From positions 106,547,602-106,611,601 of the forward strand of contig CM068826.1 of assembly GCA_028554795.2 (NCBI GenBank): a DNA stretch of 64,000 nt. The letters are read 5' to 3'. Source of the DNA: Sinohyriopsis cumingii. Taxonomy: Eukaryota > Mollusca > Bivalvia > Unionida > Unionidae. Positions 27,754-60,709 of the stretch are shown here, one piece after another. Each line of letters begins with the position of its first letter. Positions within the stretch are counted from its first letter, which is position 1. The translations under genes and the position numbers were made by a program. The notes below the pieces were generated by a model, which was not told the origin of the DNA, searched no databases, and saw only the letters and a list, made by a program, of their open reading frames with translations.

Positions 27754-28599
27754 CATATCCATATGCACACCAACATAGAAATACATGTAGTTATACAAGC
27801 CCCGACAAATGATTGGCCAACTAAACCCATGTGACCACTACGGGGCAGTTCAGTTGGCCCTTCCGGGCTCTGCTCACTATCATAACAGAGTAAGGTATAA
27901 TAAAAAATAAAAAAAGAGACCTAACCTTATTACACCACTCATAAATGTACATACGCAGGGGTAAGTAGTTTTATGGTTAGGTATTTGTTTATAACCCGAT
28001 GGACAGCAAGACTGAGGAGGCAGATTATTGAATGACACTGCAAGGTGAGCTTTTTTAGAGTTCAGCATTTGGGAAGAAATAATAACATACTCCATGATTG
28101 TTGCTGCAGGCTACTTTTAGTGACTTCAGTATATATTATATATGGAAATAAAACATACGTCAAGTCAAAAGGTATACAAATGCATATCAAAGTTACTGCT
28201 ATAATGGCATAGCTCCTCTATGCACACTTTATACATTCTTTAGCCTTACTTTACATACATAATGAAGCTCAAGTGCTTGAAAGTTTGGGCTCCGACCGCC
28301 ACAGCACAGTGAGGGCCAGACACATCCAGCGCTCTATGTGTAGCTGAAAAATGGAAAAAAGAAAAAAGGGGGAATACCTGCAGCACTCAAGCAAAGCAAA
28401 CAAGCATGGAAGGAAAAGAAAGCATACGAATCAGATAATGCCGAATTGTGCACCCCATATTATCGCGAAAAGGGTGTATATTACATGTCTCAGAACGCCA
28501 CTGGAAGAATGTGTTGCAAGATGGTCACACCTTCGATGAACCCATGTGAAGTGCTGTTAAATGAACTCATATGAAGTGCAGTGCCCGTTTGATGTGGAC

Positions 28600-29825
28600 G
28601 GCTGTATCGCTCTGTGCACCCACGAGACCTGGAAAAAGAAGAATTGGAAAGCAGAACAAGGCAGTAGGAAGTGATATGATGATGTGTACAACAACGGAAG
28701 TTAGCACTAAATTACAAATTGGAAATTATATCGCTCAGGCGTATACATTTCTTAAAGGTATCGGACCTCCAACTACCCAAGACAACTCCACAGTTGTAAA
28801 TATTGACGCAACACGTGGACAGGGCACTGGTCTTGTACTGTTTGGGGCACGACACTTAGGCCAAAAAGGGTACCCTTGGAGTGTTTGTAATGTGTAAACT
28901 GGACAACTAAGCCATCGTCACTGATCCGAACATGAGAGAACTGAAGCAAGTTTGGATTGCTGCAATCAGACCGTCTAACGTTCATTTCACGTACCTGCAG
29001 AAATGCATGAAATGCAAGAAGAAACATAGATTTAAATAGAACCGCGCGAAAAGCATTGTAGGTAAATGTCGGCAAGACTAGAACGAGTTTTTGTAGCATA
29101 CATTTATCAATTTGTAGGCTGGCATCTGTGTGCGGTAAATGTTTATGAAGTGTTTGCAGGAGTGTTTTTTAATAAGAAAGGAATTTGGTTGGATCAGGGA
29201 TATTTTGTAGTTTGTGCATATAGCAAATAGCCGAGACATAGGTAGATATAGCTGATGGTGCATAGTGTTTTTCAAAAAGATACGAAATAAAAAGTGCTAA
29301 ATTGGTACTTGAAACCGGGAAAGTGCTGTGGAGTTTTAAAGCGGTTGAAAAATCGATGTAATGTTTCCAACTGCGCCTGTAAGATTCTACCGAAGATGGA
29401 GAAAGAGATTGCTTATTGATGATATGAACTAAGGCCATGTTATTAGTATGGATGTTAATACAATGGTTAGCAAGCAAAGGCCCCCATATTTGAATAGCAA
29501 AGACAACAGGGTAAAGTTCAAGTAGAGTAATATTTTTCTCTTTCCACTCCTCATTCGAAACCCCATGAAACCATCTAGAGCCTAGAACAGCCCCATAGGC
29601 CACAGTACTAGCTGCGTCAGTGAAGAGATTCAGTTTGTCCGAGTTCAACCAGCGATCTGCTAAGAAGAAAGAGCGACCATTGAAATCCTGAAGAAACCGA
29701 TTCCACAAAATCAAATTAGATTTTACTGCTTTGTTGAGTCGAATGTGGTATTGGGCATGTGGAACTCCTATTGTGAGACCAATGAGTCGACGAAAGAATG
29801 CTCGTCCTGGGAGTACCACGCCACA
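28600..29825 (-). pseudogene. DIRS-type retroelement remnant (RNase H + tyrosine recombinase)
   Basis: The 216-codon minus-strand frame 29819-29169 begins with an RT/RNase H connection (GRAFFRRLIGLT). It has RNase H features: LFTDAASTVAYGAV and the Glu of ITLLELYPVVFAI, while HTNN stands where TDN is usual. It then passes into the N-terminal core-binding part of a tyrosine recombinase (SVESYRRSWKHYIDF ... YAPSAISTYVSAI). The frame at 29099-28773 continues into the catalytic domain (LAFHAFLQVREMN). There the usual catalytic Arg context LRxGE reads LQVRE, so that Arg appears lost. The RT palm is absent. DIRS elements use reverse transcription plus YR integration. The copy is 5'-truncated and frameshifted. 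Confidence 0.72.
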
Positions 29826-29847
29826 AGCAAAACTGAGCGTACCAATT

Positions 29848-30185
29848 ATGGACTGATCAACTTGATAACTGGTAGAGCGAAGTGGAAGTATCTACTTCAT
29901 AACTTGTAATAATAGATTCAAGTGATCCATGATGAACTTGATAACTGGTAGAATCAAGTGGAAGTATCCACTTGATAATTTGTAATAATAGCACTAGAGT
30001 CGAGGGAGAGCACAAACTCAAGAAAGGAGGAGTCACGTGATAGACAATGAATTTGAAAACTGCTAGAGTCACACGGACCCACCTGATAACTTGACATAAC
30101 AGCAAGCAGATCTGAACTTGCAAACTCCAAAAATATAAAACCAATAGATGCACGTGTAACTTGAAAACTGATAGAGTAAAGTAGA
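29848..30185 (-). repeat. Degenerate tandem repeat between the DIRS remnant and the Polinton-like element
   Basis: AACTTGATAACTGGTAGA and AAGTGGAAGTATC(T/C)ACTT recur about 80 bases apart. Weaker copies (GAATTTGAAAACTGCTAGAG, AACTTGAAAACTGATAGAG) extend towards 30180. It could belong to the 5' end of the DIRS element or be local satellite. Confidence 0.6.
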
Positions 30186-30221
30186 GATAGTTGGAAAAAC
30201 TTGGCGATCCAGCATTCAGAG

Positions 30222-30502
30222 AGCAGCAGAGATGGTGAACAGACTACTTGCTGAAAGGTCCATTTTTGAAAAATAAAGCTTTTTACAAAAAATGAAAATA
30301 AAAAGTCAATAATGCCAAACATAAACCTCTAACAGCAACCGAGAGTTTCTCTAATTGGGTTAGTTTATTTTGTTACTCCATCTTTTGTCGTTTGTTTTTT
30401 TCAAAATTTTTGTGTGTTTTTGTTTACCCATCGTGATACTTATTTGTGGTTGCACCCTCACTACTGTGGTATTGTGCGAGTAATTAAATCATTATTATAT
30501 CA
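30222..30502 (+). repeat. Left terminal inverted repeat of the Polinton-like element
   Basis: The reverse complement of 44675-44956 matches this segment along its length. Examples are GAACAGAC, GGTCCATT, the long identity GAGAGTTTCTCTAATTGGGT with TAGTTTATTTTGTTACTC, CACTTATTTGTGGT-like text and GAGTAATTAAATCATTATTA near the inner end. The outer part has decayed more than the middle. Confidence 0.9.
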
Positions 30503-30507
30503 GTCTC

Positions 30508-31114
30508 TCAACCAAATATTTTATCAAGACTTATACGATATTGCGATCGAAGATCATGTAAATTTATTGTTATAAATCCGTGTGGAGCAGATTGTGCTTT
30601 TGAAAAGAAGTTTTTGAACTTAATCATATCCATGTCTCCATTACACCAAGTCTGATGAATATTTCTCAAAGTATGTGTATCGACTCCATTGAACACAACC
30701 AAAAATATTAGTTATCTCTGATCAATTTAGATATTTGTGTATATCGCTGAGTAACATAAATCACGTCTGTGTTTTTGTGTCTGCCTCGAGAAAATATCCG
30801 AGCTGGATTTGATTGTTTATCCAGCATCACATCATCGTATACTACGAGATTATTAATAATCCATCGAGGTCAACTACAGATGAGGCTTCATCAATATCGG
30901 TAATAAAATTAATACTATCATTGCCATCCTCGTCCAACAATTTTGAGTTTTCATTAAAATCTTTAAGTACATCGTAATATCTCTGATCATCAACTGACGG
31001 AGCTAATAAATACAACTTATCCCATTTGAGCCATCTCATTATCAGATTAGGTAATAATTGCGTCTCACCAAACCTAGATGGATCTATGATAATTGCTCTA
31101 CCACCACCTAACAA
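30508..31114 (-). pseudogene. Packaging ATPase remnant (FtsK-HerA/A32-like)
   Basis: Three minus-strand frames carry successive parts. 31114-30842 gives IIIDPSRFGETQLLPN, a Walker A in which the expected Gly-x-Gly-Lys-Thr reads with Glu at the Lys position, followed by KLYLLAPSVDDQRYYDVL. A shifted frame around 30842-30715 gives VVYDDVM (Walker B) and SRGRHKNTDVIYVTQRY, the Gln-containing sensor region typical of viral packaging ATPases. 30702-30508 is the C-terminal part. This family pumps genome into preformed capsids. The N-terminus is missing where it meets the integrase head to head at about 31.12 kb. Confidence 0.7.
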
Positions 31115-31124
31115 AATTCAGCAT

Positions 31125-31905
31125 GCACATTTTTGATGTCAGCACTCCAAATGAAGTTCATCAGGCAGATATTTTTTTATCACACGAAACTATTAGAATT
31201 GGTAGACGTCAATCACGTACATACAAATACACGTTGTCAAGTAGATATAAAGAAGCAGAACTACTATCAACTGAAACAGCAGCTGAAGTTGTATCTGCTT
31301 TTGGACGAATTTATCAACGAGGACCCTTGCGAAAGTCACAGTTGTTATAGGTTGATCCTGGTAAGGAATCTCTTAGTACAGTATCATCTCTGATGAAAAA
31401 ACATAACGTCAAAATTAGACGAGTATACACAGCAATTCATCGTGATCAGGCAATTGTTAAAAGATTTAATTGAACACTTGCTGGGCGATTGTTTAGATAT
31501 CAATGTGCGAAGGAAATAATTCAGAAAGATATGAGATCTCACGAATGGGTTGAAAGATTATCAAGTGTGATAGCTGCCTTAAATAATGAAATTACTAGTG
31601 CAATTTATATGAAACCCATTAACGCAATTAAAAAAAAAACCAATACAACGATATCACGTTTCAAAACAACCAGTATTAGATAATGTGACTGTCATATATT
31701 TATATGATCCTGGTGAACTTGAAGTTGGTTTTTAAAAAAGGGCGACTGATCCTATTTGGAATATACGACACATACCATTTCCAGCGTGGTAAGATCTACG
31801 GGTAGACCTGCAATCTACAGATTAGATTCAACTGCTCCTCAATGTGGATTTGAATGTGAACAAATATAAGTAATTCCCGAAGACACACAATTACCACCGC
31901 ATTCA
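31125..31905 (+). pseudogene. Retroviral-type (rve) integrase remnant
   Basis: This is the only major gene of the element on the plus strand. 31128-31350 gives STPNEVHQADIFL and SSRYKEAELLSTETAAEVV. Across a stop, VDPGKESLSTVSSLMKKH gives the second-Asp region. DQAIVKRFN has Lys where the D,D-35-E Glu is expected. WVERLSSVIAALNNEITSAI and, in another frame, YDPGELEVG and RATDPIWN are the C-terminal portion. The segment that should hold the first catalytic Asp (before SSRYKEA) looks deleted. In Polintons this enzyme inserts the linear genome into host DNA; this copy cannot be active. Confidence 0.75.
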
Positions 31906-32265
31906 CTTTTGTAAACTAGCAAATCGACGTCGATTACATTCAAGACAGATCAGCATGGTTGATAATATCCGCGATGAAACGTAAACTAGTATTAGGAGCC
32001 GGTAATTAATCAACCGATCACATTTTCGCGAGTGTTACCAAGATTACTATTAATTCTATCTATGGTAAATTGTCTTGGATTATTAGTTGAATATTACTGT
32101 GTTACAGCTTGCACAATTATTATTTTGCTGTTTTTTAATGTCATAATGAATTCAACATCGTGATCAAAGTCGCGCTTACTTTTTTTGTCACACTGTTTAT
32201 AACGAATTAAAAAAATTCTTACTATTTCATCGTTAGTTTCCTGAATTAGATTATTTTTTTCTTAG
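31906..32265. other. Intergenic gap between integrase and helicase remnants
   Basis: The stretch lies between the convergent 3' ends of the plus-strand integrase and the minus-strand helicase. It is AT-rich, with no open frame of note or recognised motif. Confidence 0.5.
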
Positions 32266-33200
32266 AGATCTATGATAACTCTCCGCAGCTGAGATATTCT
32301 TCTGACTCGAGACACTGCGAGATAAACTAAATTTGACCATCTGATACGATCATCGACGATCCAAACATTTCTACCAGAGATGGTTAAGAATCGTCATTAC
32401 GTATCCTAGCGCCCATGGAGTTCTGTTCATAGTTAACGCGCTCTCAACAACAATGACAGGAACTAAAACAATATCATTTAACACAAGAGTTTGTTTCTCT
32501 GACTATCCTGGTATATCAACGTCGATGTTTTGTCGTCGAGTATCTGCTGATCTATAACACAATGGTACAGGTAGATTCGAAAATTTTTCTTTATGTAACA
32601 TAAATAATTGTTGTTGAAGTGTATTACGAACTATCTTTCTCCTTGCAACTATCAAATCAGCTGGTCTCCATAAATTGAAAAAAATTGTTTATAGGAGTTT
32701 CTGAAATTATTTCACACATTATTTCACATTGAATTTTATTCGGTTGTAGTCTGATTAATTTCTTAAGCTCTCTTAATTCTAGATAAAGCGCTCTGTGATC
32801 ATGAGTTATTTTTTCATAATAATTCACAAGTTTTTTCAGCCATTTATGTGGAGACAATCCAACAAAGATGGTGGTTGACCATGATCACCATACATTATCA
32901 TATCAGTATTTTATGTCAATAACCAATCAAGAAATATTTTTAACGTTTCTAATGAAACGGTGCATATTTTATCCCAAACAATAATCCTTGGAATATATTT
33001 CTCGCCCATTCGTTCTTGAGTCCATTTATATCCCTTCCATCGAAAGAATTTGTGATAAGTGTATTATTTAATATTTCTTTCTTTCATTTCTCTTCTCTGT
33101 GTGTAGGTGTTAATACAACTATATCAAAATTCCGAAATAATTCAATCACACGAGTTGTTTTACCAGAAATTCCAGGCCCATTGAGAGAAACTGTTTTATG
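32266..33200 (-). pseudogene. SF1 DNA helicase remnant
   Basis: Read on the minus strand, SF1 helicase motifs appear in order. They are GPGISGKTT (Walker A, about 33.16 kb); IPRIIVWDKIC (Walker B, with Lys at the catalytic Glu position, about 32.98 kb); MYGDHGQPP (motif III, about 32.88 kb); a conserved HDHRALYLELRELKKLIRLQ block in 32857-32657; WALGYVMT; and in a further frame YLAVSRVRR (motif VI, about 32.3 kb). At least two frameshifts and several stops interrupt it. It lies directly 3' of the polymerase remnant on the same strand, about 130 bases after the last polymerase frame. That suggests a fused or co-transcribed polymerase-helicase replication module. Confidence 0.75.
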
Positions 33201-33299
33201 TCTAGCAACAGAATCATATACCGGTGGCGCAGATGACAATTTTAATATTATTTTTTTAGGTAATAAATATCCTTTTTTTCAACGTCGGCGGATTCAGAA

Positions 33300-34420
33300 T
33301 AATTAAGTATATTTTCTTGTTTAATTCTCCATTCACCCCATGATGTATAAGTGCCGATATGTAGTTGTACTAGCAATCCTGTATTTTTTTTTATTGATAT
33401 AAAATGAATCCGTAGCGACTCTGACAGCAAATTCAGAAACTCTATTTATCGTCGATAATAGATTTATCAAAATGTACGCGAGCATTGAAGATCTTAAATG
33501 AGTATACTGCAGTGACTCAACATCAATATAATTCACAGTCGTACCTAATTTAGTTCCGTCTGATGAATTAACATTACTTCGACTTATAAATGTGTTTCTA
33601 TTCGTTGTATCAACAATTATAAAATCGAGATAAGCAACATATATAATCAATCTTGGACAATGTCGTTTATGATCATATGATCCTCCTTGCTTGAATTTAC
33701 TGATTATTTTTTCTGTCAAGATATTTTGCGAATTCATTCTCAAAATCAGTCATATCAGGATTTTCATCATTAGAATATTTCTTTTGTTGTGGTAACCAGA
33801 CTTCTTTCTGCGGACGATATGATATAATTGCTTCACTTACAATCAAGGATATAAGTATTTTTACATGGAGCATATACCGTAATAATATTGTTGGTGCCCA
33901 CATTTTTTCTGCAAGATCTTCGGCAAACTTAAATGACTCGATACAAGCGAATCCAGTCAGGTCAAAATCTGGTAATGGTCCATTTATCGATACTCTGGTC
34001 ATCTCGTGTGTTGGATGTCCAAATCGCTCAAAATACTTAGAACACTCTCCCATTCCAAGAAACATGCAACCTTATCAACCGAGATAACGTCTTTATAATC
34101 GCATTTGGTATTCAATAATCCACCGTGTCCGTATTCGACACAACTCGATATTATATCATTGAGAAAATCAAACCTCGTAGGCTTCCACGAATTTTTCTCT
34201 CTAGCGAAATGAGCCGCGACAGGTGGAATCGTAAAACAATTATCGAGCAATTTTTCATGATCGTTGGTGTATTTTGACGCTTGATTTTTCATTTCTTCGT
34301 GGAGAGATTCTGTGTCATAAATATCTCCATTAGGTTGTAAAAACTGATCATAGTTTCCATCATCTGAACTCTGAAATAACCATACTGATACGGGTTTGTT
34401 CTTGATAATCTAGAATATTA
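33300..34420 (-). pseudogene. Divergent family-B-like DNA polymerase remnant
   Basis: Overlapping minus-strand frames (34292-33999, 34065-33697, 33743-33333) give KFAEDLAEKMWAPTILLRYM, EAIISYRPQKEVWLP, RLIIYVAYLDFIIVDTTNRN and HLRSSMLAYILINLL. They then give VRVATDSFYI, where ATDS occupies the place of the DTDS metal-binding motif C of family-B polymerases. An upstream part (LFQSSDDGNYDQFLQP, about 34.38-34.33 kb) precedes it. It is followed by the SF1 helicase on the same strand. The family-B call rests mainly on the TDS motif and gene context. The protein is clearly unlike the second polymerase at 52.7-55.67 kb. Confidence 0.6.
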
Positions 34421-34850
34421 TGGGTAATATATCCATCAATTTGATGAAATCAGATTTTTATTGAGAATTAGATAATATTTTTAAGTCGATCAAATTTAAT
34501 ACAAGGATGTGCATAATTCAGAATGAGATCTCTATCACACGTAATCATAATATTATGTTCTCGCTGCAATACATTTAATTTTTCCTGTGTCTACAAAACA
34601 TTTTTATTGCCGTATTCATCAATAATTATATTAACACTAAATTGTTCTGCCCTGACTGGGGGCAGTGTCAATATTGTTCTGACGGCATTTTCAAGAACAT
34701 CTTTGTTGTGTATAAAAACTCAGATGTTGGTACATTATATAATACCTCTTGATTAAAGGTACACGGCCATACTCCAACATTTTCATATTTATATCAGATT
34801 TGCATTACATGATTAAAGATAGTTATACTCGCACAAAAAAAAAAATAATT
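34421..34850 (-). pseudogene. Degraded upstream part of the polymerase region
   Basis: Fragmentary minus-strand frames continue upstream of the polymerase remnant with no clean motif. They would correspond to an N-terminal or exonuclease region by position only. Confidence 0.25.
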
Positions 34851-37140
34851 ATCAAGTGTAAAGAAGAAATAATAATTTAATTACTCGAAATAGAAGTATA
34901 CAACGCTGTTACTTCCCTTAGTTATGATTTCCCGCCTATAGAGGACGCAACCGGAAAGGACGTACATTTATGCCTACAAGACACGCTTCTTGTTGTCGAA
35001 AAATAAAACACTATAAACTATGGATAAGGAATATTTTAGATGAAACTAATGAAAACTAATTTACTGTACAGCCTTATATCGGTATGCGTGCACAACGCAC
35101 TAGATTGTGTCGCTTTGAAAACTGTTCCATTGTTTCAATTTATTTTGAAAATTCTCGTTAATACAGGTAAAAATAATCAATGCTGGCATCCCTGTGTCGG
35201 CAGACTTTATAAAAAAAAAAGATGAAAGAAATCGGCACACTTAAAGAATCCAAAGGAACCAAACTTGACTTCCTTTTCTCGGCCGACTTCAGAAGAAAAA
35301 ATCGGCACACTAAAAAGATACCAAAGTCAAGTTTTCGAGTGGGCTTGCATTGTAATAAAATAACCTATGTATTTGATATCCTGTCGGTAAGTTTAAGCAA
35401 TGAGTTTATTGCTTCATGCCAGTTGTGTTTGTCATTCGGGCTTCTATTTGTTTGCCATATGTAATCATAATTGATGTTTGCAATCAAAAAGATTATCATT
35501 TGCACTCACATTGAATGTATTTTAAAATAATGATTTATTTTATTTGCGAGACACCGACTTATAGTTAACCTGGATACAATACAATCTGGCTCAGTTTGCA
35601 ATAAGTAACTTATCATACGTAAATGGCAGGTGCCTTCAAGCAGTCGGGTGATACTTTCGTCTCATTTGCGATTGTATTATTTGACATAAGCGATACACAC
35701 TACACTAAGGATACGTAGGCAAGCCGGCATCCGCCACATATACGGAGTTCGTGGATATATATTTTTTAAAAATAATTCTCGCATGATGAAAAAGAAGGAA
35801 TATATGATAACAATGCAAGGTTAATTTCTTCATTTTATTTTCAAACAAGCGTATGTTTATCAATTTATTTTGTACCGTGAGTGTGTGTGGGGGGGGGGCA
35901 CAAATTAAGCACAAAAATATTTCCTTTCTAATTTGTACGGAATAATGGAGCAAATATGATTGACGATATCGACTAGTAATGACAAGATTTCAATTTACGC
36001 GCGCAAACACTAAGACAACTAGAAAAATAAAAACAAACAATATAATTAACTGGTAAGAGCTTCATATTGCAGCAACTAAATACTGACAAAATGCTCAACA
36101 TTATTCTCTCTCTCTTTCTCTCATGTGTAATCTAGTATGTCTTGTATGCAGCTGTGTTACAACGTGAAGCCTAAAATTAAGTATATTTGTTATAATATCC
36201 CATGAACACTACCCTTAGCAAAATGTATACGTATTATGTAGAATGTTACCTGTTACATATTTTTGTTTTATAAATGATTATTGATAATTTGACCGGAAGA
36301 TTTAAACTGAGAATGTCGTTGTGCAGATGCATATAACTTTTAGCATAAAAAAGTATATAAATATTTTAATTAGAACAAGCAAGATATGTCAGTTTGTGTT
36401 TTCTCTCATAAATATGTACGTTTGAAGTATGAATATTTTCTTTCAAAGAATATCAAAAGAGTTTGTTTAAATTTAGTTTTTTTCTTCCTAAAACCTATCT
36501 TGCATATCATCCACTTTTTGTTAAAGAAAAAGAAAGTACTAAATATTGTTAAGTTTGGCCGAATTGTATTTCGATTTGGGCCGAATTGTCTTTGGGCCGA
36601 ATTGTCTTTGGGCCAAATTCACTGTAATCCGGCATAAACGATACAACTTTCCCATCCCTCCCCTATTCGATCCCACAGATTAAATGCACCTTTTTTATGG
36701 TAAATATGGTTTTTCGGAAAAAGAAAGAACGCTTTTTCCCATCATCACTCTTTTGGTTACATCCGTATGCAACACACACCATATTTGCTGTACAAAAGCC
36801 CGATCGTACGCTATATCACATAGAAATTTACGTGGGGAAATTAAGCACTTGAATGGCTAGGTTGAATAGAAGGGATAAATGTATGCCATATCCGGTTTTG
36901 GCACGCGGAAACTTCCGATTGTTTACGGAGATTGCCTAATATTTTTTTCATTTTATAAAGCGGAGTTTTAAGTCTAATTAAACATTTTTATGGTGTGCAT
37001 ACATAACCAATGCGTTCTGTTTATAACTATAATAATATCACACGTTTGTATAATATAGGTGGCCGGTGGCCTTTAAATAATTAATTTGTAAAACACCAAC
37101 TTCGACTCTACAAAAGTATCTTTATAATTAAAAATCGTTA
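34850..37140. other. Non-coding block inside the Polinton-like element, possible later insertion
   Basis: The minus-strand coding decay stops near 34.85 kb and resumes near 37.15 kb. The block has different character: less uniformly AT-rich, with TTACTTCCCTTAGTTATGAT near the left edge. A 25-base-scale repeat (AAATCGGCACAC(T)TAAA) occurs at 35228 and 35299, and GGGCCGAATTGTC is repeated at 36580-36615. No transposase or terminal inverted repeat is seen, so its nature is open. Frames at 35222-35464 and 36386-36637 show no motif. Confidence 0.4.
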
Positions 37141-37149
37141 AGATTGGAC

Positions 37150-38571
37150 GTAGAGATTTATATTCAAATTTCGTCACTTAGATCAAGCAAGTGTCCGAAT
37201 TGGTCGGTAAGGTTGAAATTTATTCGTGTTAATAAATTATTGTGACAACACAGATAAACCGGATTAATCGGTTCTTGTACAATCAAATATCCAGGAGGAA
37301 CTTGAGGTGAAAATGAACACAAAATATATCCTTGTGGAGCTTGACTGGATTCTTCAAGTTTTATTGATAGCTACCGTCAATTACGTCACATACAAGATTA
37401 ACTGCAATAGTTGAAGTTATATTAACAATTCCTGGTGAAATATGACGGCCTTCACCATGCTGATTTTTGTTATGTTTGAGAATTCTGCTGGCGGATTTAG
37501 TTTTGTCCATGATTCAACAATTATAGGAAATTGTTCATTGAAAAGATCGTTGACTGATTTTTTAGTTCATCAGTTTTAAATTCTGGGTACAAATTTTGGT
37601 AAATCTGCTTCGGTTATTTTATAACGCTTAACAAATAGTTGTTTACGGTTTTTAGGAAGGCTATATCGTCCGAAGATTACAGACTCAATAATAACTAAAT
37701 TGACATACTCAAGGTCTGATGTAACTTGATTCAGATGTTGTATTGTTTCAATGATTTGTTGTTTTACGTCGTCATTGTAGTATTGTATGATACTAGAAAA
37801 TAAATTTTGTAGAGTATTGAATATAGTTTGATGTTCATTATTAATTTTTTAGCACATAAATTAATAAATTCTTCGTTGGAAGTTTCAGTAAAACTAAATA
37901 AATTTTCTCCTGTTCGGATAGTAGGAACACTAACAACATTTTTGATAGTAGGTAAAACTTTTGGTTTGCCAAAAACTTTTTGATCATATTCAAAAGTATG
38001 ATACACATTACTCCACGGATATTCTTTTCGATATTCTGTAGGTTTAAAAAAATTCCTATCTGTGATAAAATAATATCGTTTTGGTTCTGGTGGCCGATGA
38101 TATTCTGGCGGAATTTCTGACCAACCTAATACAAATTTGATTGACGATTGATAAATATCTACAACATAATCTGGTGAATTTATTTATATCGCAGCTGATA
38201 AGTTGGTTCGTGGACAGTGATAGTTATTTTTGATTATATATTTAATTCTGCACTGAAATTCATCGTTGATTTGTTCGATTTGATAATTACCCGTGGGAAT
38301 ATCGACAACTTGCCAATCGGGAGTTCCATCATCTTTAATTCTTATTTGCAAATACTAGTGAATTATATGTTGGTAATCCACCAAATGATTTTGATCTGAT
38401 ATTTGGCCAGCTGTAATATATTCGTAACTGCGCTAGCGCTATTTCTTTCGCTAAAATTGCAGTTAGAAAGTTAATGCTAAATTCAGGATTAGTTGTGCTT
38501 ACCAATATCATTTTTAGTTTTTGACGGAGTTTATTAACAACAATATGTTCTGGTAACTTGCTCGGCGTTGA

Positions 38572-38574
<3 letters not shown>
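37150..38574 (-). pseudogene. Putative virion structural protein remnant
   Basis: The minus-strand frame from 38574 begins MSTPSKLPEHIVVNKLRQKL and contains IALAQLRIYYSWPNIRSKSF. A shifted frame continues WQVVDIPTGNYQIEQIND and INSPDYVVDIYQSSIKFVLG, then EYHRPPEPKRYYFI. 38006-37764 gives YHTFEYDQKVFGKPKVLPTI. The 'YSWxNI...IPxGNYxxxxIN' pattern resembles a family of structural proteins in invertebrate virus-like elements (recollection). The exact role, penton/minor capsid or attachment, is uncertain. Confidence 0.5.

Positions 38575-38617
<43 letters not shown>
38572..38617 (+). repeat. (ATT)n microsatellite
   Basis: About fifteen ATT units immediately upstream (minus-strand sense) of the start codon of the structural-protein remnant. 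Confidence 0.95.
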
Positions 38618-38619
38618 TC

Positions 38620-39060
38620 AATCAGACATAGATTCTATCACAGTCATTACTTCCTTGTAAATTCCAATAATCTGTGTAAATTCAAAATCTGATATTATCC
38701 CATCGCCGAGACTCGATGACAACAACGAAGATAACATAGAATATGCCAACGTCGATGCGTGTAATTTTATTACATATTCATGCAATTTTGTGTTTGTACA
38801 TGTACATATCTTTTGGTGATGATGTTAAGAAGACCAACAATTGTTGTTGCAACTGAAACACAAATTGTTATAATTGCTGGCTATGTCAGTATTATTGTTG
38901 ATAGCAATACACCTGTTCCAGCGACAACAGCAGACGCCGAATACACAATTATGTCAACAACAACTACACGTTTGTGATATTTGTTTACTTTTACTGTATG
39001 CTCGTCAACGATATTTTTCAGTTTGCTTTGCCATTCACGTGACTGCTTGTATCTAAAACG
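38620..39060 (-). pseudogene. Membrane-segment protein remnant
   Basis: A minus-strand frame near 38.99-38.86 kb gives VKVNKYHKRVVVVDIIVYSA followed by SAVVAGTGVLLSTIILT, a basic stretch leading into a strongly hydrophobic, membrane-like segment. It lies between the fibre-like and structural-protein remnants. It may be the C-terminus of the fibre-like protein or a separate small membrane protein. Both ends are obscured by stops. Confidence 0.35.
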
Positions 39061-39213
39061 TTGAACGATTATCGTTGAGTGGTGACCATAATGCTTGTCC
39101 AGACGCTACTGAATGCTACACTATTGGTATTTTTTTTATGTCGGAGAGTTTAATATCGACGGCTGGTGGACTTCCAAAAAACTCATTAATGTTTCTGTTT
39201 CTACGAAAACTCA

Positions 39214-39620
39214 TCAACAATTGTACAATTGTACATGATTAGAATAATCAGTTCTAAATGAGATCATTTCATTATTAACTGAAACTAACGAGTTCATCAT
39301 TGGAAGGATGAATTTCTTCGTTACAGCGTCATTGTCTGATTCTGGTTCTCCAAGATCAGTAATTTTATTTTTTAACATATTGAGAGAACCAATCATTGTA
39401 TCACCGGATATTTTAACTCGACCACGAATATTATCTGATATCGTTGACAAAGTAACACCGGTTTTAATTTTTCCATTACTATCAAACACAGCTACGCTAT
39501 TTTCAATTACTCCGTTAATTCTCTCGACAATATCTTGCAATGAAAGATTACTCGTTTTTAATTTCCCTTGCTTATCCTGAAATACAACAACTTCGTTTGG
39601 ATCTACATTTAATAATTCAC
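39214..39620 (-). pseudogene. Fibre-like protein remnant
   Basis: The 108-codon minus-strand frame (39540-39214) contains VKISGDTMIGSLNMLKNKIT and DLGEPESDNDAVTKKFI. The 'GDTMxGxLNMxxxKITxLGxPxxxxDAVTKKFV' pattern is a widespread shaft/base motif of phage and virus fibre proteins. It has also been seen in eukaryotic virus-like elements. A short stretch upstream in another frame (NEVVVFQDKQGKLK) extends it. It is probably a receptor-binding or spike protein; no head domain is visible. Confidence 0.6.
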
Positions 39621-39749
39621 ATATTCATCACTAATCTGTTTACTCACGTTTTCATGGGTTATTCTGTCGGTTTATTATTTTTGTTTAGAAGAAGATCTTC
39701 CTTAAATATCAACCATTATCCTTTAAGATCTGTTTAAACGACGGACCGT

Positions 39750-40210
39750 CTACTTGTATAATCGTGTACGACTTTATGGGGTGGTATTTTTGATGATGAC
39801 ACAGCGTCGAGTACAGCAATTACTTCACGGACTCATTGGCGGATCTGTTATTGTCTGTGTTGGTAATGTTGAATACCAGACTGCAGTTTTTATAGAGTTT
39901 GCCCAGTTTAAAAATTGTTTTGGTGGAGCCAACCCATATGAATCAAAATAAATAAATCCACATGGATCAGCTTGCGTATGCAACCCAGTGAGTACCAGGG
40001 CCGGAACTTTTATCGAAATTAATAATACCTGTTTCAATTGTATTTGCTTGTTTTAGTAATTTGTCATGCATAAAATCACCTCTAAAATTTATAATATTTA
40101 AATTTTTAACATACTCAAGGAAATCAAAATTTGACATAGGAAGAATCAACGAAGTTTCCCTGGAAGTCTCAGACCTTTTCCGTAACAATGAAGGGTTCCT
40201 GGTTCTCACG
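39750..40210 (-). pseudogene. Adenovirus-type cysteine protease remnant
   Basis: 40209-39967 ends with GIINFDKSSGPGTHWVAYA, with the catalytic His in GTHWVAY. A shifted frame (40037-39825) gives CGFIYFDSYGLAPPKQFLNW, with the Asp of FDSYG, then KTAVWYSTLPTQ. This spacing is characteristic of the adenain/Polinton maturation protease that processes capsid proteins. A frameshift lies near 40.0 kb. The nucleophile Cys region expected about 40-50 residues later is not recognisable, so the enzyme is dead or truncated. Confidence 0.75.
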
Positions 40211-41050
40211 GAATTGTTTATGAGTTATATCATTATGTATATGTTGTCAAAAATGTACTCGGGTTTTGTTGCCGCGTACAGCGTCACCCGAGGATGTTAT
40301 ATCTTTTCAGCTCTAGTTATTTCGAAATGCTGATCGAAACTCAAATCATGCTGCATGTGCAAATTGCCTGCAGCGGAAAACCCTAAGTACCTAGCTGCGC
40401 ATATCTGTCACAGCTAGTATACATATAGAGCAAATTCTCTATAAACGAATTACATTACGACGAGTCTTGTCAGGAAGCTTACTCATTTACCGGAACAAAT
40501 CTCCAGCTGTAGAGGTAATGAAATTTAAGTATTCTTTATTACTATTCGTTTTATATGACATAATTGTTTCATGCCTTAGATGTTTTAGATTTTATTCTAA
40601 ATTCTACAGAGAGTCAATATCTAGGTTATACAACGCCATATTATAAATACTATAGCCTGGTTCGAGTTAGCTATTTGTTGTAACTGAACAGACAAATTGA
40701 ATTTAATTATACGCTTCATGCATTGAACGATTAATGTTAATGTAATGGATAAAGAATTCATGTGCGCGCATGCGCAACATATATCAATGCAGAAGTACTT
40801 AACCGTGTCATATGTACAACACGGTTTGGTTGTTATAATTTTAGCTGCCTTATACATGGTTTGATGTGGAGTCACAGAACTCTGTTTGGTTTTCTCGTGA
40901 CGTGTACGCTGTGTCTGGTGACGTTGGTTCGGAAGAGTGTACTGGTGTTCTCGATGTGAGGGACCAGGGCTTCGCGATCATCGGGTCTGTGTTGAATTTG
41001 AGGACTCTCGAGGGATCCTTCAACAGACTGAGAGGGGCGGACCATGCGTT
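40211..41050. other. Spacer between protease and minor structural remnants
   Basis: No confident coding signal is seen on the minus strand here. Frames at 40762-40959 and 40866-41075 on the plus strand carry no motif. The 40860-41050 stretch is richer in G+C than its surroundings, so it may be foreign to the element. Confidence 0.4.
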
Positions 41051-41057
41051 ATATAAC

Positions 41058-41400
41058 TCATACACAATTCCGTGACACTAGTAATCTTAGACCTCTTCCC
41101 TTTTTTATAGAAGTTTTTATTCCTTGTCCTGTTGCTTTCTTTAATCCATTCCAGAAGCAGTTCCAACAGCACCAAGTGCAGCTGCTTTTGCAACATGTGG
41201 GGCTGCAGCGGCTATTAACGTTCGTATAGCCACAAGAAGTTGAAATATACCGCTTGTTTTGAGTCTTTAACTGTACCAGCAGAAAGATTAAGTCTAACAC
41301 TGGAGTTTGATTGTTTGACGTCATTGAAATGCCTGAACTGACGTTCTGACAATGATAGTTTATTTTGACCACCTGTGATCTGATCTTTTTTGGTGATATT
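41058..41400 (-). pseudogene. Small basic/hydrophobic virion-protein remnant
   Basis: In one minus-strand frame (about 41.39-41.24 kb) the text reads LSERQFRHFNDVKQSNSSVR and LNLSAGTVKDSKQAVYFNFL. A frame at about 41.23-41.15 kb gives RTLIAAAAPHVAKAAALGAV followed by GTASGM. The annotated-length frame ends KKATGQGIKTSIKKGRG. The Ala/Gly-rich hydrophobic stretch plus Lys-rich tail is reminiscent of membrane-active or core minor virion proteins. Function is inferred from composition and position next to the capsid gene. Confidence 0.4.
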
Positions 41401-41466
41401 TTTATTCCACAGGGTTTTTTTTGGGCTGATTTTGATTGAAGTTTTTTAATCTGACCATATATGACA

Positions 41467-42820
41467 TTATAAATATCGTGAGCAATTTATAATTATGTTT
41501 TCTACTGGAGCGTCAATGACATTCATTCGTCCACCAAAACCTTCAAGTAACATTGATTTATCACTGAGTATAAGTGCGATTGCTCTGTAACCATCAGCAG
41601 GTAGTCGAGCTACACGAGCTCGAAAATGTATATCAACTACAGATTGTCTGAGTAAATCTAAATGTTCCAGCGAAAAGTAATAGATTGGATATAGTGTTGT
41701 GAAATCCCGCTGAAATATTTGTAAATCACTATCTATATTTTGATCACGTCCCATGAATGTCATCAAACGATGATATGCATGTGCAGCATGATTTTAATCA
41801 AAATTTAGCAAAACTTCTTCAGATGGTTCTTGATGCCCGTTTATACTCAAAGCAACTTCAGAAGTTCCAAGTATGCCAAATACCATTGGAATTTGCTCCT
41901 GTGAATTTCCCTGAAAAGCAATAAATATATGTCTTGGTGCAGAAACACCTTGCTGTGATGCAATATGCCATGTAAATAACCCAGCAGCATTACTTTGGAC
42001 ACTATCTATATCCATTGTCAACCACGATAATAATGATTTACCACCTGAATTCATAAAAGCAAGTAGTTTTTTTTCTTCTTCAGCAATTGACGGAATCAGT
42101 ACTGGCATAAACAGTGACAGTTTTGTTAATATTACTTTACCATCAGCAACAGCGTTTGGTCCCCAGATTGCATCATTGTCAGTAGCTTTTATTACAAGTT
42201 CAACTGTGTGCTTAGCTCCAAAAATAACTTTTTCTAACAGTTCTGCAAATCCAAAGATATGTGACAATAGAATCACACATGAAAAATTTTCTTCTCCATT
42301 TAACATTGATCTACGTGCGGGAAATCCCAGGTTGAAATTGTCATTCATCGATGCAACTTCAGTTCCAGCTGCATTCATTCTTACATTGTTATTCTCAGAC
42401 TGATCAGTGGTATCCTTTGCAAACATCATTGACGGACCAGCTGACCCCGAGTAATCATCGCTATATTTTGCAAGGCCAAGTACTGTTGTGGCAACGTCAA
42501 CAGCGTTCTGGCATATTTCAATATTTCTTCCATCGATTATGCATATAGCACTGTTAAATAATGCCATAATACCATTGTTAACCAAACCAGGTCTATCAGC
42601 AAGTCCCTATGGTGTATCATCTGCTTTTATAAGTCAACCTTCTACTTCAATAAATGCTTCATCAGGTAAGAAGTATCTGCTTGTATCTTGAACTTGTATT
42701 TCATTTCGTCCACGTTGATTTGGTACACGTGCGTCATAAGAATAATATTGACAATCACGCACAGATTCGTCTTTAAGAACTGGTGAGTCCATGTCAAACG
42801 CTGGATCCCCATACGTCTAA
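41467..42820 (-). pseudogene. Candidate major capsid protein (double jelly-roll type) remnant
   Basis: A minus-strand coding region of about 450 codons lies in three pieces. About 42.82-42.59 kb gives RYFLPDEAFIEVEG and ADDTP. The 263-codon frame 42585-41794 gives MVNNGIMALFNSAICIIDGR and LGFPARRSMLNGEENFSCVI. 41766-41467 gives FQRDFTTLYPIYYF and RMNVIDAP. An N-terminal 'conserved strand, then NN...LFxxxxxxIDG' layout, the length and the position beside pX-like and protease genes fit a Polinton-type MCP. The call is structural inference, not a residue-level match. There are two frame breaks and several in-frame stops. Confidence 0.5.
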
Positions 42821-42949
42821 ACAATTTTATTATAATTGTTATGTCTAACACGAATACCACTTCCTGCTATTAAACTTGCTGTTATAGTTTTTTTTTTCTT
42901 TTTCTGGCTGAGGTATATCAGCTAACTCTGTTAGTTTTTGATTTGCTGC

Positions 42950-43302
42950 TTGATTTATTATTTGACTGACTTTTGCAGGCATAATTCAGTGCTTGGACGT
43001 GTAATTTCCTGTAGTTTTACTGGCTGTGGTTTTCTTCGTATAAATCGTGCTAATCTATCTTTGATTGCTGAAGATGTTTTACTAGTAAGATTACCAATAT
43101 CACTGATACCTTTATCTTGAATAACGTCAATAGCTTTCATTCCTAATTATTTTGCAATTGGTATTGCTTTTGGAGCTATTCTCTTAAATAAACCTTGCAG
43201 AACATCACCTAGTCCATCTCCGTAGATCGCTTTGTATGTTGGCAATCCCGAATTTATTATTCTGACCATTACAGGTCCACGTTGAGCATTATGTACAATC
43301 AT
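42950..43302 (-). pseudogene. pX-like minor virion protein remnant
   Basis: The minus-strand frame from the ATG at 43302 reads GDGLGDVLQGLFKRIAPKAI, then, after one in-frame TAA near 43.15 kb, GMKAIDVIQDKG and AIKDRLARFIRRKP. The Gly-Leu-Gly start, a 'LFKRxxPxAxxxxKxxG' hydrophobic-basic helix and a later Arg/Lys-rich stretch are typical of the pX-like proteins of adintoviruses and Polintons. It sits immediately 5' of the candidate capsid gene, as expected for a virion module. Family assignment is by pattern. Confidence 0.6.
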
Positions 43303-43339
43303 TTTTTTATTTATTAATCAGCCCACTGATCTACTTATT

Positions 43340-43830
43340 CTCAATCGCTGTAATAATCATCAGCAATTGCATTAATGAGAGATCGATAAACATTAATATC
43401 CATAATACCGCCTGTAAATAATCTTCGACAAATATCAGATATTTTATTAATAATGTCTGGAGAATTATTTCCATCTCGTTTTCCTCCGATCAGAATTTCT
43501 AATCGTTCAACATCAGAAAGAACATTGTTAGGACAAGTAATAAGGCCACTTCCTTGAGTAACAAAACCACTTCCACTCGCACCTGGAGGTGTGCCACCTT
43601 CTGTTTCTCTTTGCCTTACGTACTTTCTAAATTGATTAAAATTCCTGTCGTCATCGTCAGCAAGTTTATTAGTAAATATGGAATATACATCTTTAACCTA
43701 ATCATCTTTTGTTTTCCAAGATCCAGTATAATCAGATTTTGCTTATTTTTCAGTTTGATTGCATCCCTGTGCGGCAATATCTACTGCGTCATTGTATTTT
43801 GATCCCATGATTCTGGTTAAAACCACTAGT
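43340..43830 (-). pseudogene. Unrecognised virion-module protein remnant
   Basis: A fairly open minus-strand frame gives GGTPPGASGSGFVTQGSGLI, NNVLSDVERLEILIGGKRDG and ICRRLFTGGIMDINVYRSLI. It looks like genuine decayed coding sequence (hydrophobic/charged periodicity, consistent frame). I do not recognise the family. It lies between the pX-like and the 5'-most frames. Confidence 0.4.
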
Positions 43831-44449
43831 TGTATATTTATTCTTAATATCAATTACTTGTAGAAATTGTGATTTAGGAAATTGTAATTTAAAAGATTGT
43901 AGTTGAGGTTGCTTTTGAATTTTTTGTGTTTTAAAATTTTTTGGTTTTTGTGGCTCAGGAATTTTTGGTTTTTGTGGCTCAGGTTGAAAAATTTGTGGCT
44001 CGTGTTGAAATTGTTGTTCACGTGACTCTTAAATTTTATTTACTTTTTCAATATATTCTTGATATATTGGATCATCATTTCAAGCCTCTTTTTTGTTGTA
44101 ATATATACGATATATCTATTTAAATTTTTTATCAACATTTACACAAGCATACTCAGGCTTTAAATATTTAGACTTTTGAAGAAAACCTTTCAATGCAGTA
44201 CGAGGTAATTCTTCCTCTGTAACAATTTCTTTATTAGTAAGTTTTTCAATAACACCTTTTCTAATTTTTTTAGTCAATGCAATATTATTTTTATTACTTT
44301 GGGTTTTGATGCAAGATCTTTTTTATTTCACCAATATCTTAAAATATTTATTCTTCTCTACCAGGAAATTGAGCAGCAACTATTTCACCTGGAAGATCTC
44401 TTAAAATCTTTTATGTTTGCTTAGTTCTTCTTGCTATCTTTTCAGTTTG
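43831..44449 (-). other. AT-rich decayed coding stretch
   Basis: Many short minus-strand frames are interrupted by stops. A repeat of Thr/Lys-rich triplets (plus-strand TTTTTGGTTTTTGTGGCTCAGG occurs twice near 43950-43980) suggests a former low-complexity linker. No family is recognised. Confidence 0.3.
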
Positions 44450-44671
44450 CTAAGCCGTTTGTTTTAAAGTTGGAAGAAGACCTACGGTAGCTTCTGCAAC
44501 TCTTTCAGTAACTTTTGTAACAGGTTTAAATGATTCTTCTGTATCTTCTGTAAATTCAACTTGAGATTCCTGACGTTCTTGCAGTTTTTGTCTAACAGCA
44601 TCACGAAGAGGAAGATATTTTCTAATTGCTTCTAATCTTTCTCGAGCTAATCTAGCAGTATAAGATTCCAT
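44450..44671 (-). pseudogene. First frame inside the right terminal repeat, unrecognised
   Basis: A 73-codon minus-strand frame begins MESYTARLARERLEAIRKYL immediately inside the right inverted repeat. It is charged and helix-prone (LRDAVRQKLQERQESQVEF), suggesting a coiled coil. By position it is the first gene read from this end. No family is recognised. Confidence 0.4.
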
Positions 44672-44674
44672 TGT

Positions 44675-44956
44675 TGATATAATAATGATTTAATTACTCA
44701 CACAATACAGCAGCAGAGAGGGTGCGACCACAAATAAGTGTCATGGTGGGCAAACAAAAACACACAAATTTTGAAAAACACAAACAACAAAAGAAAGAGT
44801 AACAAAATAAACTAACCCAATTAGAGAAACTCTCGGTCTTTTGTTGGAGCTTTCGGTTTGACGTTGTTGACTTTTTATTTTTATTTTTCGTAGAAAGCTT
44901 TGTTTTTTTTTTTAATGGACCTTCCAGCGAGCGGTCTGTTCGCCCTCTCTGCTACA
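44675..44956 (-). repeat. Right terminal inverted repeat of the Polinton-like element
   Basis: Reverse complement of 30222-30502. GAGTAACAAAATAAACTAAC and CCAATTAGAGAAACTCTC (44797-44834) are perfect partners of the left repeat. Its outermost bases read, inwards, TGTAGCAGAG versus AGCAGCAGAG on the left. Confidence 0.9.
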
Positions 44957-45199
44957 CAGAGTGTAGCTAATGTATGCACTGTAGAACTGTAGTGCCAAGG
45001 GTGTACCGATGCTGATTAATATTTTGCCAAACTAAAGGAATGACGCTCCAGAAATTTTTACTTGAATTAGACACTGTTAAGGACAAGCTGGAAAACGTAT
45101 CGAAAAGCAATAATTATATATCATGTGTTAATATAGAGTGAAATAATGTAGGAAACGGAAGGAAAATGCAAGAATATTTAAGGAAAAGAAACAAATACG

Positions 45200-45268
<69 letters not shown>

Positions 45269-45689
45269 GAACTCAATGGCTTCAGTCTTATAATCTAAGT
45301 TACACATTTTCTTGCAAGCAGTCATGATTACACCCCTAAGTGATTTGTACAAATACCATTGCTCTTTGTTTGACAAGTGCTCTCCATCTGCCCGGAATTT
45401 ATCCCTGCAATCCTTGATTTCGACGAGGAAAGGAAATTTACCATTGTGTTTCCAGAATGTCATCTATGGATAGGAAGTGACTTCCGTCCGCAGATCTCCA
45501 TACACCGACCATGCGAAATAATTATAAGGTGTATGACCACCACGTATGAACGTGGAAGCATCTGGCATAATACAATTAGTTTGACATGGTACTTACGATG
45601 TAATTGTCAGGCAAGCGAAATCAGTTTGAAGGCTAATGCGTGGGGTCATTATAAAGGCTCAGTTCCTGAACGTGTCATAAAAGGATAGT
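44957..45689. other. Flank right of the Polinton-like element
   Basis: The flank contains the (TA)n tract 45202-45264. A minus-strand stretch at about 45.47-45.27 kb (FWKHNGKFPFLVEIKDCRDK, NKEQWYLYKSLRGV) has protein-like composition but belongs to no family I know. It could be a decayed exon of an unknown gene. Nothing else is seen. Confidence 0.4.
45202..45264 (+). repeat. (TA)n microsatellite
   Basis: About 31 TA units. The IYIYIY frame across it is an artefact. Confidence 0.96.
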
Positions 45690-45697
45690 GCCGATGG

Positions 45698-46047
45698 CAG
45701 TGGCGTCGCTAGGGGATGCGGGGGGTGCGGACCGCACCGGGTGACACCATTTCAGAGGGGTGACACCAAAATGAAAAATTGCAAATTTTACAGAGCACAC
45801 ACTGCTCGGTCTAGTCGGATTTCATAAGCGGATAACCGATCATAGTTAAATACATGACTAGCAGGCACAGCAGTGGCGTCGATAGGGGGATGCGGGGGGT
45901 GCGGACTGCACCGGGTGACACCATCAGAGGGGGTGACACCAAAATGACATTACTAAGGATTCTGTAAGGTCTGTTACGGAAGGAGGACCATGGGGGTGAC
46001 ACCATGAGCTACCGCACTGGGTGACACCAACCCGAGTGACGCCACTG
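45698..46047. mobile_element. hAT-like MITE with perfect 8-bp target-site duplication
   Basis: The ends are CAGTGGCGTCGCTAGGGG on the left and, as reverse complement on the right, CAGTGGCGTCACTCGGG. CAGTGG-type ends and 8-bp duplications are features of hAT superfamily elements. The flanks 45690-45697 and 46048-46055 are both GCCGATGG, an exact 8-bp duplication. There is no transposase inside. A second left-type end (CAGTGGCGTCGATAGGGGG) starts at 45871, so the element is internally duplicated or nested. Confidence 0.88.
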
Positions 46048-46055
46048 GCCGATGG

Positions 46056-47180
46056 CACGGCATGGTTTTATTTTACATTTATCTACTGTTAGTCTTTTGA
46101 AATTAATTTGCTTGAAAGTTATCACGCTAGCACTCAGTGTAGATAGAAATAGTCCCAGCTTAACAAATAAATTCCATTGAAGTCACTGAAACCGTTTTAT
46201 ATCAGGCGATCAGCTTTAACTTCATTCTGGAAACCGTCTAAATAAACTATCAGTAGAAAGCCGGTAACAAATGACATCAGAGTAAAAATTACATCAAAAC
46301 AATGGCTTGAAAATTTTCCTCATTCAAACATTTTCAAAAGTTTTAATATGTCTTCTCTATGTGTTTCTCGCCCAATTTTTGCAGCACTTTCTGTCAAATT
46401 GTTATGCAAAATTAGCATACAAACTGTTCACATAATACAAATAAAATTTTAGTTAAGTATAAATTTTGTCCATTCAAGGACTATTTCATTCTTTAAAGTA
46501 AACAGTGCTTGGGGCTCCTTGGCGACATTCAGGTTAGAAATTATAAATCAATGAATGAAATTACCAAGTTTTGTGCATTTTTAATATCCTTGGTGCTTGA
46601 TTTGCTTTGAATTTGAATCGGAGTATGGGTGGGTGGGTAGATGGATGGGTGTACAAACAAACAGGAGGGTGTGGGAATACGATAGTTTAAAACACTTTTC
46701 TTGTGACTATTTCTACTTCCATCCCTGTGGCTGTTTCTGTAATCGTTTTTTTTTTCTTTAATCGATCCTTCAAGGATTGTAATCATTGTTCTAAGCGTGA
46801 CATCTAGGATTAGGAGACGACACTTAGGATTAGGAGGTAGATATAGTGTCAATTGTTTGTACGAACTATGTAGTTCCATTCAGCGTTTGTACAAAACTAA
46901 AACTGAACTACCTCCTTCCATAATATAAAAGGGTACAAGTGTGATGTCTTTCAAGAAATGTGTGTCCTTTTCTAATCTTTTTCTTCATCATCTCCTCACT
47001 CTTTCTATATAGGTCCAGCAGTCGATTATTCGGAACTCTTTAAACATACCGAGTTTTTCATGCACAGATAAAGTGTTGGTGGTTATGTCTTTGCATGTAC
47101 TGTTCATAAATTTTCTTCACTGTATTGGCTGATAAACGAAATCCAGTAAAGGTAGTCATTAACACACGCACCACATATCG
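46056..47180. other. No gene seen
   Basis: AT-rich sequence with a GGGTGGGTGGGTAGATGGATGG-like simple tract near 46627. The 112-codon minus-strand frame at 46541-46879 has no motif and includes a Pro-rich low-complexity piece translated from that tract. Confidence 0.5.
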
Positions 47181-48155: not shown

Positions 48156-48299
48156 TTTTGCGGTTTCCTTAGTTTTTTATAGGTGCTTCGTAAGTGAATT
48201 ATTTATTAATACTTTTATAAAATTGAATGATATGTTATGGGTTTTTATGTGGTGGCTTCTAAATTTATTTAGCTAGTTACTGGGTCTTTTGGTTTTGTG

Positions 48300-51200: not shown

Positions 51201-51430
51201 TAGTCCACCATGGTACAGGGTTTTTATTTTGGATATTAGTTGTCTTTGGTATGCATCGGTTAGCTGCTTCTATAATTGTGTCTGTTATGTTATCATAATA
51301 CATGTCAATACTTGGGCTTTCTAAGTTATCTGGATTTACTCTAGCTAGTAATAATTGGAATTGGTCCCAGTCTGCCTGTTGGTACCTCCATTTAGGTGGG
51401 GTTTCGTTTGGAACATCAATGAAATCCCAT
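48300..51430 (-). pseudogene. I-clade LINE ORF2, copy 1 (RT + RNase H), 5'-truncated
   Basis: The 416-codon frame 50526-49276 carries reverse transcriptase motifs: FLDLEKAFDLVWTNGL, GTQQGSVISPLLFNLMVNDL and FADDS (intact catalytic Asp pair). Upstream in other frames are PIPKLGKDPNNINSYRPISL (about 50.63-50.57 kb) and an endonuclease-RT linker (PWWTKQCTIAH, about 51.2 kb). Downstream is RNase H (KIYTDGSKT, TTEFWAILESL, ISDSLCVI, WIPSHIGISGNETADKVAK) and a CFNCHTTEDPHHVFNIC zinc-type tail at about 48.51 kb. RT plus RNase H plus Cys/His tail defines the I/Nimb-like clade. The copy begins inside the linker after the endonuclease, and frameshifts occur at about 50.53 and 49.28 kb. Confidence 0.85.
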
Positions 51431-60460: not shown

Positions 60461-60709
60461 TGAGATTGGTGGTGGTTGTGGTTATGAAGATGGTCTGAGG
60501 AGCAATTGTGAGTTTAGCATGATAATGTTTGGTAACACATGAGTTTAGGTGTTCTATTATGTTTTCTAATGTGTGTGTGTGTGGGGGGGGTCTGGTGCTG
60601 TTAGATTTAATTATCTCTTTGAACAGTTCAATCCAAATCTGTCATGTGATGATGTTTTGATAACTTTGGTTGGGGATGGGGATGACTTTTTATGTTGTTG
60701 CTGGTATTG

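Follow-up and report, generated by a model that had tools for sequence, protein, structure and literature searches.

The fusion of a protein-primed family-B polymerase (pPolB) with a Tlr1-like helicase (pPolB-S1H) is on record for Tlr1 as well as for polinton-like viruses and transpovirons (PMC11071308). Tlr1 of Tetrahymena thermophila is described as encoding an RVE integrase, a packaging ATPase, both capsid proteins and the helicase (PMC4642659, PMC11071308). Among metazoan capsids, only those of cnidarians are reported to fall outside the main Maverick-Polinton cluster (PMC10120064). Here we analyze an element of 14,729 bp located at positions 30225-44953 of a 64,000-nucleotide stretch of Sinohyriopsis cumingii contig CM068826.1 (the window, to which all coordinates refer). 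The element is very probably a dead integrated copy of a linear double-stranded DNA virus of about 14.7 kb that belongs to the polinton-like assemblage (Preplasmiviricota) and carried a Tlr1-like pPolB-S1H replicase.

Terminal repeats and the capsid gene

The element is bounded by terminal inverted repeats, which align with 239 identities, 37 mismatches and 5 gap positions over 281 columns (85.05%; Table 1). The local alignment score was 348, as compared with at most 31 after 200 shuffles of the left arm. This alignment upholds the inverted repeats of about 281 bp, and with them the element ends, that had been proposed in an earlier note on this DNA, although the bounds given there (30222-44956) are 3 bp too wide at each outer edge. 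Terminal inverted repeats are also characteristic of canonical Mavericks/Polintons, and Tlr1 has terminal repeats. At the DNA level, the only match of the element within the window is that between its two repeat arms.

Three open pieces in one minus-strand frame (42637-42816, 41797-42606 and 41470-41793) constitute a broken double-jelly-roll (DJR) major capsid gene. The largest piece matches the Pfam family PF21738 (double jelly roll-like) with an E-value of 4.1e-10 and 39.8 bits, above the curated cut-off of 27, so that the capsid-like frame seen earlier passes the profile search. Used as a protein query, this piece retrieved 34 homologs at E ≤0.01 among 958 candidates; as in Tlr1 and polinton-like viruses, the capsid is thus of the DJR type. 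Full-length relatives are present in public data, for example P0005 (470 aa), and the two smaller pieces, neither of which had served as a query, each match a relative with 81% identity. Three of the 34 relatives are named to species, and all three are from freshwater mussels: P0008 (165-Mb contig) and P0033 (141-Mb contig) come from Sinanodonta woodiana, and P0027 (5.5-Mb contig) from Potamilus streckersoni. Their identity to the window pieces ranges from 47% to 77%. On their own, these affiliations, along with the DIRS-like and LINE retroelements flanking the element, would suggest a bivalve or another mollusc as host, although viral genes are weak indicators of the host. The previous interpretation of the locus as a Polinton-like integrated virus bounded by terminal inverted repeats is supported.

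As a control, six-frame pieces of at least 18 residues were compared with 67 collected proteins. A scan of positions 28000-47000 yielded 11 pieces at E ≤1e-3, all of them within the element and eight at 1e-16 or better. The element comprises 494 such pieces, of which three are query pieces that match by construction, while five of the eight strongest were never queries. By comparison, 20 codon-block shuffles (11,282 pieces) gave five weak match rows with a best E-value of 1.2e-4, and no piece outside the element in the whole window matched the collected capsid or replicase relatives. A chance mosaic or fold-back, in which unrelated repeats enclose unrelated coding fossils, would agree with the failure of several named genes in profile searches and with the lack of a detectable target-site duplication. 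However, the repeat score relative to shuffled arms, the confinement of capsid and replicase matches to the region between the repeats and the outcome of the codon-block shuffles all argue against it, and we consider this explanation exceedingly unlikely.

The polymerase-helicase module

A protein search with the polymerase piece 33700-34071 identified 10 relatives among 11 candidates, and a two-row alignment of 33336-33749 and P0037 identified 31 among 321 candidates. Eight were common to both searches, giving 33 distinct replicase relatives (P0035-P0067). One of these, P0052, encoded on a 1.4-kb contig, combines, within a single frame of 276 residues, motif C (VRVATDS) with the P-loop sequence GGKGKTT and the box YDEVC; in P0047 and P0064, the frame likewise spans motif C to the P-loop. 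Three pieces of the window (33336-33749, 33087-33278 and 32914-33063) align to P0052 in the same order, and the last two were never queries. The single frame of P0052 and the collinear window pieces indicate that polymerase and helicase are one gene with the polymerase first, as in the Tlr1-like pPolB-S1H, in which the helicase is fused C-terminally.

A scan of genome contigs yielded a single further locus, L001, on a 3152-bp contig in a metagenome-assembled genome of Candidatus Diapherotrites (archaeal), which is probably eukaryotic or viral DNA that was binned wrongly. Between 34409 and 32374, eight pieces of the window align in matching order to positions 853-2712 of L001. At E ≤0.01, 18 window pieces were listed as matching this locus, nine of them on the minus strand within 32374-34409, namely the eight counted pieces and, in a different frame, 32952-33083, which overlaps with 32914-33063. 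Five plus-strand matches in the same region comprise four antisense shadows and one piece (32150-32233) that is out of order. The remaining four, outside 32374-34409 (E 1e-4 to 0.008), were treated as chance.

The first Asp of motif C is replaced in all 17 relatives that show the motif (33 scanned), by Ala in 16 and by Thr in one, and the window sequence reads VATDS. In addition, the predicted structure of the palm of a relative resembles phi29 polymerase, which points to a protein-primed family-B palm of the kind found in the Tlr1-like pPolB-S1H. The polymerase and helicase frames recognized in the earlier note gave no match in Pfam (eight pieces of 32.1-34.4 kb submitted, four smaller ones left out), while their pieces strongly match public relatives. 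The view that the module departs from canonical Polintons holds, as the polymerase is fused to a helicase. In contrast, the pairing of a superfamily 1 (SF1) helicase with a divergent polymerase has a precedent: in one public relative, both are encoded by a single fused frame, palm before helicase, with a motif C lacking the first Asp, corresponding to the Tlr1-like pPolB-S1H fusion already described (PMC11071308).

We also considered a canonical Maverick/Polinton of the adintovirus type, with a stand-alone, exonuclease-bearing pPolB alongside which an unrelated helicase had been acquired or inserted. Such an element would equally account for the terminal repeats, the DJR capsid, the rve-like frame and protease-like motifs recognized by eye and the animal-looking setting. 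However, palm and P-loop share one frame in the relatives, motif C is without its first Asp in 17 of 17 cases, and no Pfam family-B polymerase matched the submitted window polymerase pieces or the five relatives submitted of the 33, which makes this origin improbable. OmPLV-type and HelPol modules are likewise unusual polymerase modules of small double-stranded DNA viruses, and OmPLV, in which the SF1 helicase lies N-terminal to an exonuclease-bearing polymerase, even shares the fusion of helicase and pPolB (PMC12721341; HelPol, PMC11071296). Here, the polymerase precedes the helicase, both in the window and in its kin, and the palm model resembles phi29 polymerase, whereas HelPol is described as PolBc/Pol-delta-like. 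We therefore regard either of these polymerase types as very improbable and a Tlr1-like replicase as the best explanation of the module.

For the vOTU and N-terminal TP-like domains that lie upstream of the palm in the Tlr1-like module, the relatives, all of them fragments, reach at most about 50 residues beyond motif A in the upstream direction. The adjoining region of the element at 34.5-37.1 kb had no BLAST match among the collected capsid and replicase proteins; the N-terminal portion of the replicase or a subsequent insertion may be included in it. This region of about 2.6 kb (34500-37100) contains a 16-bp tandem repeat at 36575-36619.

Further candidate genes, decay and neighbouring features

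The capsid, ATPase, integrase, protease, fibre-like and pX-like remnants that the earlier note had arranged along the element fared unequally. The capsid has its profile match and the ATPase a sub-threshold one, while the integrase, protease, fibre-like, pX-like and minor-capsid-like frames gave no meaningful profile match. The frame 31093-31680 resembles an rve-type integrase in motifs recognized by eye; as a correction to the earlier account, it lies on the plus strand, opposite to the other genes. The protease-, fibre-, pX- and minor-capsid-like labels are presumptive in the same way. The earlier account of such genes is plausible but unproven. A match of a protease piece to Pfam DKCLD below the cut-off and weak unrelated Pfam matches (E 0.02 to 0.2) of 37579-37848 and three other pieces were treated as chance. 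The tblastn searches of a viral contig collection with capsid, protease, polymerase, integrase and ATPase pieces and with the alignments A2 (capsid), A3 (polymerase) and A9 detected no relative.

Table 1. Features of the integrated element; positions refer to the window.
Feature	Positions	Strand	Basis
Left terminal inverted repeat	30225-30502	+	85.05% identity to right arm, 281 columns
Packaging-ATPase-like piece	30711-30869	-	Pox_A32, E 9e-4, 19.2 bits, under cut-off 22.8
Possible N-terminal ATPase piece, degenerate P-loop	30845-31117	-	By eye; Pfam: no match
Integrase-like (rve type) frame, three open pieces in one frame, stops between	31093-31680	+	Motifs by eye
Possible C-terminal helicase piece, motif-VI-like YLAVSRV	32265-32393	-	By eye; Pfam: no match
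Helicase piece	32374-32502	-	Collinear with L001:2599-2712, E 2e-6
Helicase piece	32506-32688	-	Collinear with L001:2398-2553, E 1e-10
Helicase piece	32660-32884	-	Collinear with L001:2266-2361, E 7e-9
Helicase piece, motif-II-like box WDKIC (P0052: YDEVC)	32914-33063	-	P0052 residues 229-275, 64%, E 2e-21; L001:2059-2202
Helicase piece with Walker A (GPGISGKTT)	33087-33278	-	P0052 residues 166-215, 58%, E 6e-17; L001:1844-2002
Palm piece of the polymerase, motif C VATDS	33336-33749	-	P0045 68%, E 1e-49; P0052 E 4e-35
Polymerase palm piece past motif A	33700-34071	-	P0035 65%, E 1e-48
Polymerase piece up to degenerate motif A	34002-34409	-	P0038 54%, E 5e-17; L001:853-975
Candidate minor capsid/penton region, several pieces	37167-38634	-	By eye; three pieces submitted, no meaningful Pfam match
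Fibre-like open piece	39217-39624	-	By eye; Pfam: no match
Adenain-like protease pieces	39712-40224	-	Motif GPGTHWVAY by eye
MITE-like insertion, 870 bp, 25-bp inverted ends (96% complementary)	40206-41075		Inverted ends
DJR major capsid protein, three open pieces, same frame, stops between	41470-42816	-	PF21738, E 4e-10; P0001 70%, P0032 81%, P0017 81%
pX-like small hydrophobic/basic protein pieces	42961-43317	-	By eye; Pfam: no match
Right terminal inverted repeat	44675-44953	-	Alignment to left arm

None of the capsid, polymerase-helicase and integrase-like frames is uninterrupted, and the terminal repeats have diverged by 15%. Moreover, an insertion resembling a miniature inverted-repeat transposable element (MITE), itself without a visible target-site duplication, lies between the pX-like and protease-like regions. 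Because of the broken frames, the MITE-like insert and the lack of a detectable target-site duplication of the element, the copy is dead and cannot be active. Dating of the insertion from the divergence of the repeats was rejected, as no clock is known for the host.

Several observations weigh against the assignment of the element to a virus with a Tlr1-like replicase. Canonical Mavericks/Polintons generate a 6-bp target-site duplication, and no exact repeat of 6-8 bases was found around the element ends, where matches of 4-5 bp only were seen; since the copy is old, a duplication of this type may have decayed. Sequence searches of the PDB returned no match for the capsid piece and the capsid profile, nor for the fusion when P0052 and alignment A10 were used. 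The class of the helicase as SF1 is based on the P-loop and DE motifs together with a sub-threshold AAA_19 match. Foldseek comparisons with viral models gave weak polymerase matches (best E 0.027), and the predicted structure of the fusion P0052 was too poor for use (predicted local distance difference test, pLDDT, 44.9). The relatives of the fused protein are uninterrupted fragments, including P0052 and P0053, with no complete one among them, and the replicase relative in L001 is itself broken. Likewise, the Pox_A32 match of the ATPase frame remains below the cut-off, the integrase pieces had no integrase match in Pfam and the first of them none in the PDB, and the protease pieces had no protease match in Pfam or the PDB, where one chance match was to a non-protease.

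Under the favored interpretation as a virus with a Tlr1-like replicase, the viral genome, linear and ending in inverted repeats, would be copied by a single fused protein, consisting of a protein-primed family-B polymerase palm followed by an SF1-type helicase. An A32-like ATPase would package the genome into a DJR capsid matured by an adenain-like protease, and a retrovirus-type integrase would insert the genome into host chromosomes. Following insertion, the repeats drifted to 85% identity, genes were broken by stops and frameshifts, and the MITE-like element landed at its present position.

The surroundings of the element contain several other repeats. A DIRS-like retroelement remnant is located just to its left at 28776-29891(-), in which one piece (29172-29891) combines RNase H-like and phage-integrase SAM-like domains, both slightly under the Pfam cut-offs, and a 62-bp direct repeat is found at this remnant (29854-29991). 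Two remnants of non-LTR retrotransposons (long interspersed nuclear elements) at 48280-51489(-) and 57087-61225(-), limits that denote open pieces rather than elements, contain reverse transcriptase and RNase H domains, the second additionally an endonuclease domain. An open piece at 9717-10085(+) resembles by eye the C-terminal end of a hAT transposase, with no match in Pfam, and positions 61193-62020 are taken up by a long, degenerate tandem array of an AAATGAT-type unit, whose periods are 20, 62, 82 and 144 bp. No Rfam families or tRNA genes were detected across the window.

Comparison with known systems

The replication module is a known one, and what could be novel is its occurrence in an animal lineage. 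The related capsid fragments in the mussels Sinanodonta woodiana and Potamilus streckersoni make a distinct, thinly described invertebrate lineage possible, as the earlier note had also suggested. We tentatively propose, with slightly less than even confidence, that animals, bivalves at the very least, harbour an integrated viral lineage of their own that combines an rve-type integrase, a DJR capsid and a Tlr1-like pPolB-S1H, a branch of Tlr1 and the polinton-like viruses apart from Mavericks and adintoviruses, of which less decayed public relatives may be active. Among the titles and abstract openings listed in literature searches, none reports a Tlr1-like fusion in an animal, which is not to claim that none is in print. 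The fused polymerase-helicase type is known chiefly from unicellular organisms, in their viruses and mobile elements, and Tlr1-like replicases are a discussed evolutionary link among polintons, polinton-like viruses and transpovirons. If true, the presence of this module alongside terminal repeats and a DJR capsid in an animal-looking genome would broaden its range of hosts to include Metazoa. Such animal viruses would also allow a test of the published idea that loss of the polymerase exonuclease accompanies the gain of the helicase, for which the fragments P0052 and P0053 are a starting point.

HelPol is another exotic polymerase of animal-associated small DNA viruses, which is described as remotely PolBc/Pol-delta-like in an account that, as far as accessible to us, mentions no helicase domain (PMC11071296). 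OmPLV joins an SF1 helicase to pPolB as does the present element, but in reversed order and with the exonuclease kept (PMC12721341). The Mavericks/Polintons and adintoviruses of animals share with it the terminal inverted repeats, a length of about 15 kb, the DJR capsid and rve-like, protease-like and ATPase-like frames, whereas their pPolB stands alone and the polymerase of the element is the helicase-fused derivative. The gene set of Tlr1 is the same as that seen or suspected here, where the integrase is recognized by eye, while the adenain-like protease motif, also recognized by eye, distinguishes the element from Tlr1. The Tlr1-like pPolB-S1H, to which the module is likened by description rather than by comparison with the Tlr1 sequence, has the same protein-primed palm first, SF1 helicase second and motif C without the first Asp; the hosts named in the accessible account are a ciliate, marine algae and, for transpovirons, mimivirids (PMC11071308), whereas here the module resides in an animal-looking genome.

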